Of a stretch of 45,826 bases of DNA, positions 15,921-40,376 are shown piece after piece. The position numbers and the translations under genes are program-made. Source of the DNA: Bacteroidota bacterium (GTDB lineage Bacteria > Bacteroidota > Bacteroidia > Flavobacteriales_F > PHOS-HE28); contig JAFEAI010000265.1 of the NCBI GenBank assembly GCA_018266475.1, positions 1 through 45,826 on the forward strand, in the 5' to 3' direction. A model generated the notes under the pieces. That model made no database searches and was not told where the DNA came from. It saw only the letters and a program-made list of their open reading frames with translations. Positions within the stretch are counted from its first letter, which is position 1, and each line of letters starts with the position of its first letter.

Positions 15921-17272
15921 GCTGTTTCGGGCTTTGGGCCGGGGGCGGCATTCCCGGCGGGCCTGGGGCCTTTGCGCCTTCTGCCCCTGCCGTCGCGGTT
16001 GCGGCGCTCCCCGGGGTTGGCGGCTGCGCCATCCGCCCCCTTGCCTGCTGCGGGCGCGGCCGTGCGCTGGCCTCCTTGGCGCGGTGCATTGGCGGCTTGC
16101 GTGCCGTGATCCTTTTTCCGCCCCTTGTCGCGGTTGCGGCGTTTGCCGCCGCTCTTGATCTTCTTGTCGAAGCGGGCGAGGTCTTCACCGCCATCGATCA
16201 CATTGCCATAATCGGTGGAAGCGGTGTCCTCTTGCGGCTCCGGTTGCACATCGGCCAGGTGCAGGTCCACTTCAGGCTCCTCGCCTTGTTTGTTCCGTGC
16301 CAGGATGTCGCGCACCATTTCCGCCGGGAATGCCGCCATGGCCACGGGTTCGCCGGGTTTTTTGAACAAGTACCACATCAGGCCCTTGAAGATGTCGGTC
16401 TTCATGTGGAAGCCTGTGCCCTGGCGGGTTTTCAGCTTTGCGTTGGGCGACGGGTAGCTTTTGATGGCCTCGATGTACATGTCCAGCTCGTAGTTCAGGC
16501 AGCACTTGAGCTTGCCGCACAGGCCGGTGAGCTTTTGCGGGTTGAGGGCCAGTTGCTGGTAGCGGGCGGCGCTGGTGCTTACGCTGCGCAGATCGGTGAG
16601 CCAGGTACTGCTGCAGAGTTCTCGTCCTGCGGGGCCCAGGCCGCCCAAGCGTGCCGCCTCCTGCCTGGCGCCAAGCTGCCTCATGTCCACGCGCACGCGG
16701 AACTGCTGGGCAAGCCTGCGCACCACATCGCGGAAATCCACCCGCTCCTCGGTGGTGAAGTAGATGGTGACCCGGCTGCCGTCGCCTTGGTATTCGGCAT
16801 CGCTCACCTTGATGTCCAACCCGGCCTCGCGGCAGGCGCGGCGCGCCTCGAACAGCGCCTGGTCCTCGCGCTTGCGGGCCGCGTGCCAATTGTCCAGGTC
16901 CGCCTGGGTGGCCCTGCGGACCACTTTGCGCAGCTCATAGGTGTCGGCGCCGGCGCCCTTTCGCTTCATCTGCTCGCGGGCCAGCTCGCCGGCCAGGGCC
17001 ACCACGCCCACGTCATGGCCCGATGATGCTTCCACCACGATGGCATCGCCATCGGCGAGCGCAAGGCCGTTGGCAGTGCGGTAGAAGGCCTTGCGCGTGT
17101 TCTTGAAGCGCACCTCCACGGCATCAAACACCGGCACGCCGTTGGGCAGGGGCACCCCCGCCAGCCAATCGGTCACCTCCACCTTGTTGCACCCTCCGGG
17201 GCCGCACGGGCCCTTGCTGGCGCAACCGCCCCCCTTGCCCTCCGTATTGCTACTGCACGCTGTACACGACAT
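15917..17272 (-). CDS. ricT: PSP1/RicT-family protein with Cys-rich N-terminus and basic tail
   Basis: A 451-residue PSP1 C-terminal domain protein, the RicT/YaaT family, whose Bacillus member is an Fe-S-cofactored regulator of RNA processing. The N-terminus holds Cys pairs (SCTACSSN, GCASKGPCGPGGCNK) before VTDWL. The PSP1 core includes IVVEASSGHDVGVVALAGE, YFTTEERVDFRDVVRRL, VRVDMRQLGARQEAARLGG and LCGKLKCCLNYEL. The last ~110 residues are low-complexity, rich in Lys, Arg, Gly, Ala and Pro, and look RNA-binding and disordered. ATG 17272 is chosen because the Cys motif begins there and a -7 box abuts it; the reading frame continues upstream into holB in the wrong frame. It overlaps gldH by 4 nt. 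Confidence 0.88.
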   Translation of the reverse strand: MSCTACSSNTEGKGGGCASKGPCGPGGCNKVEVTDWLAGVPLPNGVPVFDAVEVRFKNTRKAFYRTANGLALADGDAIVVEASSGHDVGVVALAGELAREQMKRKGAGADTYELRKVVRRATQADLDNWHAARKREDQALFEARRACREAGLDIKVSDAEYQGDGSRVTIYFTTEERVDFRDVVRRLAQQFRVRVDMRQLGARQEAARLGGLGPAGRELCSSTWLTDLRSVSTSAARYQQLALNPQKLTGLCGKLKCCLNYELDMYIEAIKSYPSPNAKLKTRQGTGFHMKTDIFKGLMWYLFKKPGEPVAMAAFPAEMVRDILARNKQGEEPEVDLHLADVQPEPQEDTASTDYGNVIDGGEDLARFDKKIKSGGKRRNRDKGRKKDHGTQAANAPRQGGQRTAAPAAGKGADGAAANPGERRNRDGRGRRRKGPRPAGNAAPGPKPETA

Positions 17273-19823: not shown

Positions 19824-20030
19824 CTGACTTCTGCCATTAGTATGACATCGCGAGTTTCAGGATCAATTCAGTCGTGGAGGGGGGTACGGGAGAGCGTGCC
19901 CCTCATTGTTGGCGCCATTGTTGGCGCGGATCTGCGATCCGTGCCACTCCGTGCCACTCATTGTTGGCGCGGATCTGCGATCCGTGCCATTCATTCCACT
20001 CATTGCTGAGGCGGATCTGCGATCCGTGCC
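19759..20030. repeat. REP-like palindrome array, four copies
   Basis: Copies at 19759-19781, 19923-19945, 19966-19988 and 20008-20030. Each has arms GGCGCGGATC and GATCCGTGCC around a TGC loop (last copy begins GAGGCGGATC), usually preceded by ATTGTT and followed by ACTC. The 363-nt gap between pgk and the first toxin gene holds only these repeats and the 72-bp repeat; no gene is seen. Confidence 0.9.
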
Positions 20031-20101
20031 AACACTTCATGGAACATCCGCGCTATCGGAGGCCCGCTCCTGGCCACGCCGCGCCACGCATGCGCTTTGG
20101 G

Positions 20102-20637: not shown

Positions 20638-20687
20638 GGTGATTGGTTCTATTAGCAAAGTTAGGCACACCGCTACCATGAATTGTT

Positions 20688-20789
20688 GGCGCGGATCTGC
20701 GATCCGTGCCACCCACTCATCCTGTTGGCGCGGATCTGCGATCCGTGCCACTCATCCCTCATTGTTGGCGCGGATCTGCGATCCGTGCC
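20688..20789. repeat. REP-like palindrome array, three copies
   Basis: Copies at 20688-20710, 20727-20749 and 20767-20789, identical to the consensus of the 19759 array. They fill the gap between antitoxin 1 (upstream side) and the 3' end of toxin 2. Confidence 0.9.
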
Positions 20790-20831
20790 ACTCGTGGCTA
20801 TGGCCCGAACTTCTTGCTGACTTTCCGGCTC
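20760..20831. repeat. 72-bp perfect direct repeat, right copy
   Basis: Identical to 19752-19823. Here the second half is the real 3' end of the module 2 toxin gene, so this is probably the parental copy. Together the two copies bracket toxin-antitoxin module 1. Confidence 0.9.
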
Positions 20832-30611: not shown

Positions 30612-31856
30612 TCACACCGCGGCCAGCGCCTGCTCCAGGTCGGCGATCAGGTCCTGCGGGTGCTCCACGCCCACGCTCAGGCGCACCAGCCCCCCGGTGA
30701 TGCCCAGCTTCTCGCGCTCGCCGGGGTCCACCCCCACGTGCGTCATGGTGGCGGGATGCTCCGCCAGCGATTCGGTGCTGCCCAAGCTCACGGCCAGCTT
30801 CACCAGCTTCAGCGCGTTCAGGAAGCGGAAGGCCTCGGCCTCCCCGCCCTTCACGTCGAAGGAAAGCATGGCGCCCGCGCTGAAGCACTGCGCCTTGTAG
30901 ATGGCCTGCTGCGCCGGATCGTCGATAAAGCCCAAGTAATGCACCTTCTTCACCTTGGGGTGCCCCTTCAGGAAGGAAGCCACCTCGGTGGCGTTCAGCG
31001 CCTGCCGCTCCATCCGCACCTTCAGCGTTTCCAGGCTGCGCAGCAGCAGCCAGCCGGTCCAGGGGCCGGCCATGCAGCCCAGGAAGCTGCGCAGGCCCTT
31101 CACGCGGGCCACCAGTTCCTTGCTGCCCAAGCAGGCGCCGGCGATCACATCGCTGTGGCCGCCGATGTACTTGGTGGCCGAGTACAGCACCAGGTCCGCA
31201 CCCTGCTCCATGGGGTGCTGCCACAAGGGCCCCATGTAGGTGTTGTCCACGGCCAGCAGCACCGGCCTTTCCGCCGTGCTGAAAGCCTTGGCCAGGCGGC
31301 TGCAGGCGGCAATGTCGATCAGGATGTTGGTGGGGTTGGCCGGGGTTTCCACATAGATCATCTTCAGGCGGTCCGCCTTGCCGCTCTTGCGCACGATCTC
31401 CTCCAGGCGGTCCTGCTCCCACGGGTAAAAGCCCAGCACCTCCACGCCAAGGCGCGTGAGGATATGCTTGATGAAATGGTCGGTGCCGCCGTAGATCGGG
31501 TTGCTGAACAGCAGCAGGTCGCCCGGCGAAAGGAATTCCAGCAGCATGGTGGTGATGGCGCCCATGCCGCTCTCGAACACCGCGCAATCCCCGGCATTTT
31601 CCCAAAGGCCCAGGCGGTTTTCCAGGATCTCCAGGTCGGGATTGTTCAACCGGCTGTAGATCAGGCCCAGCTCCTCCTGTTCACCCTGCTCGCGCAGCCC
31701 GTAGGCCACCTCAAAGAAGGCCTTGCCGTCCTCCGCCTTTTGGAACACGAAGGTGCTGGTCTGGAAGATCGGGCATTTCACGGCGCCTTGCGACAGCTCG
31801 GGCTTGTAGCCGTAGCTCATCATCAGGCTTTCGGGGCGAAGTTTGCGTGGGTCCAT
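30612..31856 (-). CDS. Transsulfuration-family PLP enzyme (cystathionine gamma-synthase/methionine gamma-lyase-like)
   Basis: A 414-residue Cys/Met-metabolism PLP enzyme. Key features are the QTSTFVF and YSRLNNPDLEILENRL phosphate-binding region, FESGMGAITTMLLEFL, IYVETPANPTNILIDI, LAVDNTYMGP, PLP Lys229 in YSATKYIGGHSDVIAG, and the C-terminal SLGSTESLAEHPATMTH and LVRLSVGVEHPQDLIADL. It could act in methionine/cysteine interconversion or in alpha,gamma-elimination; the sequence does not decide. ATG 31856 is preceded by TAGCTTCG at 4 nt. It is convergent with the aminotransferase gene. Confidence 0.93.
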   Translation of the reverse strand: MDPRKLRPESLMMSYGYKPELSQGAVKCPIFQTSTFVFQKAEDGKAFFEVAYGLREQGEQEELGLIYSRLNNPDLEILENRLGLWENAGDCAVFESGMGAITTMLLEFLSPGDLLLFSNPIYGGTDHFIKHILTRLGVEVLGFYPWEQDRLEEIVRKSGKADRLKMIYVETPANPTNILIDIAACSRLAKAFSTAERPVLLAVDNTYMGPLWQHPMEQGADLVLYSATKYIGGHSDVIAGACLGSKELVARVKGLRSFLGCMAGPWTGWLLLRSLETLKVRMERQALNATEVASFLKGHPKVKKVHYLGFIDDPAQQAIYKAQCFSAGAMLSFDVKGGEAEAFRFLNALKLVKLAVSLGSTESLAEHPATMTHVGVDPGEREKLGITGGLVRLSVGVEHPQDLIADLEQALAAV

Positions 31857-31860
31857 GGCG

Positions 31861-31868
31861 CGAAGCTA
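31861..31868 (-). promoter_or_regulatory. -7-like box (TAGCTTCG) abutting a start codon
   Basis: Read on the minus strand, followed by CGCC and the ATG at 31856, exactly the arrangement seen before pgk. Confidence 0.4.
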
Positions 31869-31900
31869 CCGGTTTGCCGGTTGAACGCGGGACGCGGGGC

Positions 31901-32100
31901 AGGGCAAACGGGCCTAACGCGCCCTGCAGGCGCGTCTTCCAATAGAATTCAAAACCACGGATGGACGCAGATGAACACGGATCACGGATCCACCTACCAA
32001 GCAAAACAACCTTCCCTATCTGTGTTCATCCGTGTGGATCCGTGGTTCAAGTCCGAATGTGAATGCGCCGCCAGGTGCCTGAATAAGACCCAATGGCCTT
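31901..32100. mobile_element. MITE-like palindromic element, copy 1
   Basis: A 200-bp element with left end AGGGCAAACGGGCCTAACGC and right end (read inward on the minus strand) AAGGCCATTGGGTCTTATTC. Next inside are the GC arms GCGCCCTGCAGGCGCG and GCGCCGCCAGGTGC. The centre is a palindrome between ACCACGGATGGACGCAG (from 31954) and CCGTGTGGATCCGTGGT (to 32046). It is flanked by GGGACGCGGGGC (31889-31900) and GGGACGCGCGGG (32101-32112), a 10/12 direct repeat. No transposase ORF. It fills the gap between the transsulfuration gene and cvpA; no gene is seen there. Confidence 0.75.
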
Positions 32101-32183
32101 GGGACGCGCGGGAAAACCGCCTTCGTGGAGGATGCTTCAGCCCAGGAACCCGATCCGCACGCAGCGCAGGGGTCCCGCAACGG

Positions 32184-32696
32184 TCAGTGGCTCCATTCCT
32201 TCGCCGCCTCCACCACATCGCGCACCCAGCGCGTATCGCCCAGGGCCGGTACGATCATCGGCGCAAATGCGCGCAAGGGGCCGTACAGCGCCGAACCCTT
32301 CATCGCCTCCTGCGGCACCAGTCCCGAAACCTCCGCCCGCGCCAGCAGGAGGTTCAGCGCCACGCTAAGCACAAAGGCCGCCCGCAGCGCACCGAAGAGC
32401 AGCCCCGCCACCTTGTTCGGCAAGCCTAACTGCGCCAGGTCCATCGCCTTGGTAACCACCCGCGCCAGCAGATGTACCAGCACCAGCACGCCGATGAAGG
32501 TGACGATGAAGGAGGCCACCTCATGCTGCGGGTCCAGCCCCAGCCATGCCGCCACCCGCGCATTGTAGCGCGAGGCCGCCCAAATGCCCAGCACCAGCGC
32601 CACCAGTGAGGCCAGCTCCACCACAAAGCCGCGAAAAAAGCCCCGCACCGCCGCAGCGGCCAACAGCACCAGCAGCGTCCAGTCCAGCCAGTTCAT
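32184..32696 (-). CDS. CvpA family membrane protein
   Basis: A 170-residue inner-membrane protein of the CvpA/colicin V production family, with four hydrophobic helices (WTLLVLLAAAAVRGFFRGF, VVELASLVALVLGIWAAS, FIVTFIGVLVLVHLLARVV, LLFGALRAAFVLSVALNLLL) and the usual RGFFRGF loop after helix 1. ATG 32696 begins the family's N-terminus (NWLDWTLL); a TTG three codons upstream is less likely. The cellular role of the family is poorly defined. Confidence 0.88.
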   Translation of the reverse strand: MNWLDWTLLVLLAAAAVRGFFRGFVVELASLVALVLGIWAASRYNARVAAWLGLDPQHEVASFIVTFIGVLVLVHLLARVVTKAMDLAQLGLPNKVAGLLFGALRAAFVLSVALNLLLARAEVSGLVPQEAMKGSALYGPLRAFAPMIVPALGDTRWVRDVVEAAKEWSH

Positions 32697-32702
32697 CCCG
32701 GG

Positions 32703-32710
32703 CAAGTGTA
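32703..32710 (-). promoter_or_regulatory. -7-like box (TACACTTG) near the cvpA start
   Basis: Read on the minus strand; seven of eight bases match TAnnTTTG. It ends 6 nt before the ATG at 32696. Confidence 0.35.
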
Positions 32711-32790
32711 CGGCTCACCCCGGGTTCAACCCACGGCCGGCATGCCCATTGGTCCCTTGCACCCTCGGCCTGGGCGTGGCCGAAGGCACC

Positions 32791-33013
32791 AGGGCTATCG
32801 CCTCTTGCGCGCCCTGCGGTCGCGACTTTTCCGATTTTCCAACCACGGATGGACGCAGATAAACACGGATAAGTGCGCGATGTAGGAGGTGGGCCACAGC
32901 TTTGCGCCCGATGCCCGGAGAGGCCCGCGATCCGTGTCCATCCGTGTGGATCCGTGGTTCGTACAAGTATTGGATATGCGCCGCCAGGCGCAGTGTTAAG
33001 AGGCGATAGCCCT
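32791..33013. mobile_element. MITE-like palindromic element, copy 2 (best preserved ends)
   Basis: A 223-bp element with perfect 16-bp terminal inverted repeats, AGGGCTATCGCCTCTT at 32791-32806 and its complement at 32998-33013. Subterminal GC arms GCGCCCTGCGG and CCGCCAGGCGC follow, then the inner palindrome from ACCACGGATGGACGCAG (32842) to TGTGGATCCGTGGT (ends 32959). It is flanked on both sides, with no gap, by the identical 12-mer GCCGAAGGCACC (32779-32790 and 33014-33025). No coding capacity. It occupies most of the gap between cvpA and the gene at 33051. Confidence 0.85.
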
Positions 33014-33037
33014 GCCGAAGGCACCCATTGCCCCATC

Positions 33038-33045
33038 TATCTTCG
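33038..33045 (+). promoter_or_regulatory. -7-like box (TATCTTCG) abutting a start codon
   Basis: Ends 5 nt before the ATG at 33051. Seven of eight bases match TAnnTTTG. It lies just outside the mobile-element insertion. Confidence 0.4.
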
Positions 33046-33050
33046 TCCCC

Positions 33051-33398
33051 ATGGACTTGATCTTTGAGGCCCGCTGGCGCAGCCTGATGAAGCGCCTGGA
33101 GGACCGCTTCGGCATGCCGATGGACATGGATTCGCTGCTGTTCCTGATCGGGGTGCAGGAGCTGGGCCAAGGCGGGCGCGACTTCAAGAAGGATGAAAAG
33201 GTGGGCCTCATGCACATCGCCGTGTCCACCCTGCTGATCCCCTACGGCTACTACCGCAAGGTGGGCCTGGATGCCGACGGCTGGCCCCATTTCGAGCGCG
33301 ACAACCACCTGCCGCCGCTAAAGCCGAAGGAACAGGAGCACCTGATCAAGGAAGCGGCACTGAAGTACTTCGAGGGAGTTTTCGCGGAGCCGCGCTGA
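33051..33398 (+). CDS. Conserved small hypothetical protein
   Basis: A 115-residue soluble protein, helical at both ends (DLIFEARWRSLMKRLEDRFG; EQEHLIKEAALKYFEGVF). A central segment (DSLLFLIGVQELGQGGRDF, then KVGLMHIAVSTLLIPYGYY) looks strongly constrained. I recall similar short proteins in other Flavobacteriales but cannot assign a family name or role. Codon use and composition match neighbouring genes. The MITE-like element ends 37 nt upstream of the start and its flanking repeat 12 nt closer. Confidence 0.7.
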   Translation: MDLIFEARWRSLMKRLEDRFGMPMDMDSLLFLIGVQELGQGGRDFKKDEKVGLMHIAVSTLLIPYGYYRKVGLDADGWPHFERDNHLPPLKPKEQEHLIKEAALKYFEGVFAEPR

Positions 33399-33461
33399 CC
33401 GCCCGGCCTTGTCGCCCGCCAATGGCCTGGCAACGTTCATTCCCGGCACGGAACCATTCCG

Positions 33462-39752: not shown

Positions 39753-40017
39753 AGTGGTCTGTTTTAAAATGGGTGCTAACTCCTAATACACGCAACAATC
39801 TGCGTAAAGCCGGAATCGGCAATCCCCGATGCACAGTGTGTTGGCTGCCTTACGGTATGCTTGGTGCAATGCGCCAAGCCAAGCAAGGCACTTTGCACGC
39901 TGAACCAGCGGACCAGGAGAGGCGAAGCCTGCATTGGGGTGATCGGTAGGGATGGGGTTGGAGGACCGAATATAATGCCCATGTGACATTCGGATCGGTC
40001 CAAAGGACGATCCGAGC
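39753..40017. other. Gap upstream of the ATPase gene, with a strong hairpin
   Basis: No gene is seen. A near-perfect hairpin, TCGGATCGGTCC-AAA-GGACGATCCGA, covers 39990-40015, directly beside MITE-like copy 3 (part of it is that element's flanking direct repeat). The AT-rich composition ends near 39770. CACGCAAC at 39789-39796 also occurs at 37888-37895 on the other side of the AT-rich island. Confidence 0.5.
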
Positions 40018-40197
40018 GGGACCATCGGGTTTAACGCGCCCTGCGGGCGCGCCTTCCAAGAGAATTCAACCACAGATGGCATGCACGGATCACGGACCCA
40101 CCTAACCTGCCATATCTGTGTTCATCCGTGTGAATCCGTGGTTCAAAAACAGTGTGTGAATGCGCCGCCAGGCGCATGGATAAGGCCAGATAACCCT
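40018..40197. mobile_element. MITE-like palindromic element, copy 3
   Basis: A 180-bp element with left end GGGACCATCGGGTTTAACGC and right end (inward, minus strand) AGGGTTATCTGGCCTTATCC. GC arms GCGCCCTGCGGGCGCG and GCGCCGCCAGGCGC flank a centre from ACCACAGATGG to CCGTGTGAATCCGTGGT. The flanks are GACGATCCGAGC (40006-40017) and ACCGATCCGAGC (40198-40209), a 10/12 direct repeat. Shorter inner palindrome than copies 1 and 2. No transposase. Confidence 0.75.
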
Positions 40198-40376
40198 ACC
40201 GATCCGAGCGCCTACCGTGGTAAATGCCGAGTGTACCGGCAAGTGGTCGGAACGGTGCAGGTCCGGACCCTATTGCTTCTCCCAGCGATATAACCCTGGG
40301 AGGAATTCCCCTGCTGCACGCTTTGCCTGGAAGTGGCCGCCGGAAAGTCCGCAGGGCCTAACGGGAGCACCCTGCC
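40198..40376. other. Gap downstream of pyk
   Basis: No gene seen. A small hairpin, TCCCAG...CTGGGA at about 40276-40297, lies beyond the pyk stop and may help end its transcript; there is no clear T-run. Confidence 0.35.

Follow-up and report, generated by a model that had tools for sequence, protein, structure and literature searches.

MITEs with IS-type ends are textbook mobile elements. In BrickBuilt, a MITE of Porphyromonas gingivalis, the ends enclose a trapped minisatellite (PMC4596501). The term ISAs1 is absent from the main text of a review of bacterial MITEs (PMC10969869), and the open-access papers searched contained no account of an ISAs1 MITE. The element analysed here lies at positions 32790–33014 of the window, the whole 45,826-nucleotide stretch of DNA under study, and resembles bacterial Type I MITEs (PMC10969869; PMC3542288) in combining terminal inverted repeats (TIRs) of an autonomous IS type with a target duplication and no transposase. 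On sequence grounds it is assigned, with a probability of roughly 0.92, to a non-autonomous ISAs1-family MITE with a palindrome trapped between its ends.

Limits, ends and layout of the element

The element begins at C 32790, ends at G 33014 (225 bp, no strand assigned) and is a short unit bounded by perfect 17-bp TIRs and devoid of a transposase, as is typical of a MITE. The original prediction had described perfect 16-bp inverted ends, and AGGGCTATCGCCTCTT at 32791–32806 is indeed exactly inverted at 32998–33013; a one-base extension of this match yields the perfect 17-bp TIR CAGGGCTATCGCCTCTT, with the left TIR at 32790–32806 on the forward strand and the right TIR, which reads CAGGGCTATCGCCTCTTAA inwards, at 32998–33014 on the reverse strand. 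The left TIR shares 16 of 17 bases, and the right TIR 18 of 19, with the TIR of congeneric ISAs1, CAGGGCTATCGCGTCTTAA. A perfect 12-bp flanking duplication had also been proposed, and GCCGAAGGCACC does occur at both 32779–32790 and 33014–33025, but the target-site duplication itself is the 10-mer CCGAAGGCAC (32780–32789 and 33015–33024, both forward strand), the outer G and the outer C of the 12-mer each belonging to the end of the element on one side and matching by coincidence on the other. When the window was scanned for perfect inverted repeats of 16 bp spaced 60–600 bp apart, the element and just one other pair (15944–16337) emerged, the latter located within an ORF and with flanks that do not match; the combination of TIRs and an abutting repeat is therefore not chance background.

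Inwards of the TIRs lie two GC-rich subterminal segments that are kept across copies, GCGCGCCCTGCGGTCGCG on the left (32807–32824, forward strand) and GCGCCGCCAGGCGC on the right (32978–32991, forward strand), and the element has an orientation because the two differ. The centre is occupied by the palindrome that the original prediction had recognised, its left arm of iterated CACGGATGG/A units (32841–32870, forward strand), a type of arm also seen without TIRs, pairing with the right arm (32930–32959, reverse strand) at 80% complementarity. In single-stranded form the element folds as a single long hairpin (−61.5 kcal/mol, z −6.6). It sits between two divergently read ORFs, the first (32184–32705, reverse strand) matching colicin V production/MarP models weakly, below cut-off, and the other (33051–33398, 115 aa) having no NCBIfam match. 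An Rfam search of 31600–33400 gave no match to a known structured RNA. Elsewhere in the window, two tandem arrays of a 39–42-bp unit containing GGCGCGGATCTGCGATCCGTGCC are found about 650 bp apart, at 19916–20031 and 20682–20793.

Dispersed copies, nested insertions and the 10-bp duplication

The genome from which the window derives is a Flavobacteriales-type draft of 3.57 Mb in 283 contigs, 97.9% complete. It holds three near-identical copies (90–96% along their whole length) and some 30 diverged copies with both ends present, whose two outer parts show homology at 75–82% and whose middle is shorter. These roughly 30 copies have a common layout of TIR, GC-rich segment, arm AACCACGGATGGACACGGATGAACACGGAT, short middle, inverse arm, a different GC-rich segment and TIR, and an alignment of copies from two genomes retains it in full. 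Two diverged copies lie in the window itself, both on the forward strand: one of 202 bp at 31900–32101, with flanks GGACGCGGGG and GGACGCGCGG, and one of 182 bp with a shortened middle at 40017–40198, with flanks ACGATCCGAG and CCGATCCGAG, the flanks being 9/10 identical in each case. The range from near-identical to decayed copies suggests repeated activity over time. Two contigs, C136 (right end, L011) and C202 (left end, L043), both stop inside a MITE of this type with the common flanking 10-mer CATTCGGACT and are thus probably neighbours in the genome. Matches in a 58-genome sample are confined to the same genus, where 26 of 34 congeners match, many by arms alone, and no match comes from the 23 genomes that represent other genera in the class. 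Relatives carrying the ends include the Flavobacteriales/Bacteroidetes MAGs ACE_NR_BACT18, SJ6 and SZAS-77.

The length of the target duplication emerges from all copies together. When ends were paired by TIR alone, with the flanks not consulted (112 automatic pairs, all loci across genomes), flank identity reached 57.7% at 10 bp, where shuffled flanks gave 28.2% (sd 1.4%); it was 36.5% at 9 bp, 33.8% at 11 bp and at background for every other length. This sharp peak sets the duplication at 10 bp. A flank match of at least 8/10 was displayed by 48 of the 112 pairs and by 52 of 12,432 mismatched pairs. With stricter pairing in the home genome (36 TIR-bounded elements), the comparison with shuffled flank pairs that the original prediction had called for gives 72.2% identity at 10 bp versus 29.6% (sd 2.7%). 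Copies without a flanking repeat had been named there as evidence against the claim; most copies do have one, 24 of the 36 reaching 8/10 and 28 when duplications of 9 or 11 bp, which fit a few copies better, are allowed, while the eight calls without a recognisable duplication include some mis-paired ends of nested copies. As nested or mis-paired ends were left in both sets, these figures are conservative. The family therefore comprises multiple dispersed copies with target-site duplications.

Three copies are lodged inside another MITE type bearing the same kind of ends, the CACAGAGGCACAG-type, whose uninterrupted sister copies represent the empty sites: two copies of the present type on contigs C168 (flanks GGCACATATT/GGCACATGTT) and C138 (flanks CCGCCTCCGT/CCGCTTCCGT) and a 255-bp element on C67, flanked twice by CTCCTTCCAG. 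Removal of the insert and one 10-mer produces a junction-spanning alignment to the sister copies at 93–94%, so that at these three nested insertions a member of the family entered a previously intact site. Insertion with a 10-bp duplication is thereby shown at the level of the family and not of the locus 32790–33014 itself, where relatives keep the gene order and do not have the element, the intergenic DNA being too diverged for a single 10-mer to be read. The strong folding of the interior by itself (z −6.6) could suit a pre-existing repeat pair or cruciform that was never inserted and whose repeats arose by chance or local duplication, but such an origin is virtually untenable given that dozens of copies occupy unrelated sites and most of them have a 10-mer of their own, and is refuted by the nested pairs of filled and empty sites. 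The claim of a transposable MITE is thus borne out by a multi-copy family with defined ends, a constant 10-bp duplication and empty sites at nested insertions.

An ISAs1-family transposase as the probable enzyme

The home genome encodes two DDE_Tnp_1 proteins, of which the one on contig C219 belongs to the ISAs1 family (NF033564, 340 bits). This is the sole ISAs1 of the assembly, and its TIR reads differently, CAGGGCAAACGCATC, while its left end has decayed; no autonomous ISAs1 with the matching TIR (CAGGGCTATCGCSTCTTAA) was found in the 283 contigs of this 97.9% complete assembly. In draft assemblies, multi-copy IS tend to go missing. A search of 45 congeneric genomes with the C219 ISAs1 found ISAs1 copies in few of them, three equally scoring ones in genome G004 and one in G065, also recovered via PF13808, with transposases scoring 371 and 367 bits, respectively, against NF033564 (transpos_ISAs1, cut-off 70). 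The three G004 copies measure 1216 bp, have CAGGGCTATCGCGTCTTAA perfect at both ends and are all flanked by perfect 10-bp duplications (GGCCTTGGGG, GCGATGGGCC and GGCGCGATCC). The single G065 copy (1218 bp) has the same TIR and flanks without a clear 10-bp duplication. G004 also carries a pair of nearly identical 245-bp MITEs, and the 18-bp TIRs of both match those of its ISAs1 exactly. An autonomous copy with matching ends in the same genome, which would support derivation from ISAs1 and is not strictly required for a MITE, is found for these 245-bp MITEs only.

The end sequence (18/19 bases shared with the G004 and G065 ISAs1) and the duplication length (10 bp for the MITEs and for all three G004 ISAs1 copies) thus agree independently, making an ISAs1-family transposase the most likely mobilising enzyme. 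By BLAST, the MITE resembles the ISAs1 copy in the TIRs only and is therefore not a simple internal deletion of the congeneric ISAs1. The restriction of this likeness to the TIRs, together with the lack of a TIR-matched ISAs1 in the home assembly, could point to a different family of DDE transposases whose CAGGG ends are similar and whose match to ISAs1 is convergent. Such convergence is nevertheless very unlikely in view of the 18 of 19 TIR bases and equal duplication shared with intact congeneric ISAs1 and the identity of MITE and IS TIRs within G004, and the only other DDE_Tnp_1 gene of the home genome (C79, L089) is without such ends.

The original prediction had also envisaged a transposase or RAYT gene with matching ends. 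The transposase with matching ends is that of ISAs1 in congeneric genomes, not a RAYT. Spread of the element as a REP/BIME-type palindrome by a RAYT (Y1 transposase) would accord with its palindromic interior and with the five Y1_Tnp (PF01797) matches in the home genome, but the Y1_Tnp loci contain neither a copy of the interior arm nor a convincing TIR, and the REP/RAYT arrangement, a palindrome flanking a Y1 transposase gene with no target duplication, was not encountered. Target duplications are not expected of Y1/RAYT elements. The constant 10-bp duplication speaks strongly against this origin, as does the match of the ends to ISAs1, leaving it highly improbable.

With an ISAs1-family enzyme, a DDE transposase supplied in trans would bind the CAGGGCYATCG... 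ends, move the 225-bp unit and insert it at a staggered cut, repair of which would generate the 10-bp target duplication. The interior, with no transposase, would be a dispersed palindrome of iterated CACGGATG units trapped by ISAs1-type ends and multiplied with them.

Interiors under one set of ends and comparison with known systems

The TIR-bounded elements of the home and congeneric genomes enclose at least five unrelated interiors. Type a, that of the element at 32790–33014, consists of CACGGATG palindromes; type b is a GC-rich multi-hairpin unit of 339–341 bp, often at contig ends; type c consists of CCACAGAGGCACAGAG palindromes, type d of CAACTGACAACTGAC-type repeats and type e, from G004, of GACCCC...GGGGTC hairpins. 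Types a, b and c come with duplications of about 10 bp, as does type d in its one complete copy (8/10). The type-b MITE, with the same kind of TIRs and mostly with 10-bp duplications, is frequently cut by contig ends (home-genome loci L056–L060, L068, L069, L071–L073, L075, L076, L080, L082 and L084–L087) and probably causes assembly breaks. In the MITE arms, small GC-rich palindromes of about 18–35 nt (CCCCGGTgaatACCGGGG, CCTGCCGGCCGGCAGG and TTCGCCGAAGGCTTCGCGAAGG types) take the place of the GGAT in single CACGGAT units or interrupt it, as if they were tiny insertions themselves; they are found in G004 (L145 278–532, L150 277–507, L151 282–521, L152 260–500, L154 290–550 and L155 273–496) and in the home genome (L026 and L050).

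The type-a palindrome is not confined to these ends. It occurs without them elsewhere in the home genome, in congeners that match by arm only and in 27 stretches of viral-labelled contigs, and the 14 palindromes read from the latter have no convincing TIR within 250 bp. The suggestion that this interior is scattered across many genomes is supported in part only, by those viral-labelled stretches; a strict pattern for the palindrome matched none of 197 other sampled genomes of the phylum. A literature search on the palindrome sequence returned nothing related, as judged by title. Since the palindrome also occurs naked in unrelated contigs, we conclude that the element is a composite MITE whose palindrome was probably captured by ISAs1 ends and not born inside the MITE; its presence in those contigs also makes the reverse, palindromes escaping from MITEs, less likely.

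Repeats of the CACGGATG and CAACTGACAACT types also surround small stand-alone genes of the PD-(D/E)XK_3 and 23S-rRNA-intervening-protein families. On contig C10 (L044 1587–2269) type-a arms border a PD-(D/E)XK_3 (PF13366) gene whose probable start codon falls within an arm (MDTDEHGS...) and which is adjoined by a tandem array of units of about 150 bp carrying a type-a arm. On contig C162 (L035 1320–2050) a 23S_rRNA_IVP (PF05635) gene has arrays of CAACTGACAACTGACAAC, the type-d interior repeat, on both sides. The PD-(D/E)XK_3 gene was considered as the palindrome's own mobility gene and rejected: arms surround one of four such genes only (that on C10), the other repeat type occurs at one of five 23S-IVP genes, and neither gene family is present in the 27 viral-labelled stretches with arms.

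A type of palindrome known otherwise just from scattered repeats can now be assigned to a defined mobile element with ends, a 10-bp duplication and a probable enzyme, and one IS family probably multiplies several unrelated palindromes within the same genome. The spread of such repeats becomes testable by transposition assay, and the element family probably accounts for some contig breaks in these draft genomes. The same ends around at least five unrelated palindromic interiors raise the possibility, which we regard as doubtful, that the ISAs1 machinery of the genus is a general carrier for palindromic repeats; trapping by IS ends would then be one route multiplying the dispersed palindromes of environmental bacteria, and long palindromic interiors might be selected for.

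The element belongs to a known kind, with several interiors present under one set of ends in these genomes. The element resembles ISAs1-family IS (NCBIfam NF033564) in its TIR (18/19) and in the 10-bp target duplication of congeneric ISAs1 copies. In contrast to them it has no transposase gene, measures 225 bp instead of 1216–1218 bp and has an unrelated interior. Like BrickBuilt (PMC4596501), it is multi-copy, with IS-type TIRs surrounding a trapped, unrelated repeat that is multiplied along with the element. The two differ in their ends, IS5-type in BrickBuilt and ISAs1-type here, and in the trapped repeat, a 23-nt tandem repeat in BrickBuilt and a palindrome of iterated CACGGATG units in the present element, whose repeat, unlike that of BrickBuilt, also occurs outside the MITE and whose ends enclose several unrelated interiors.
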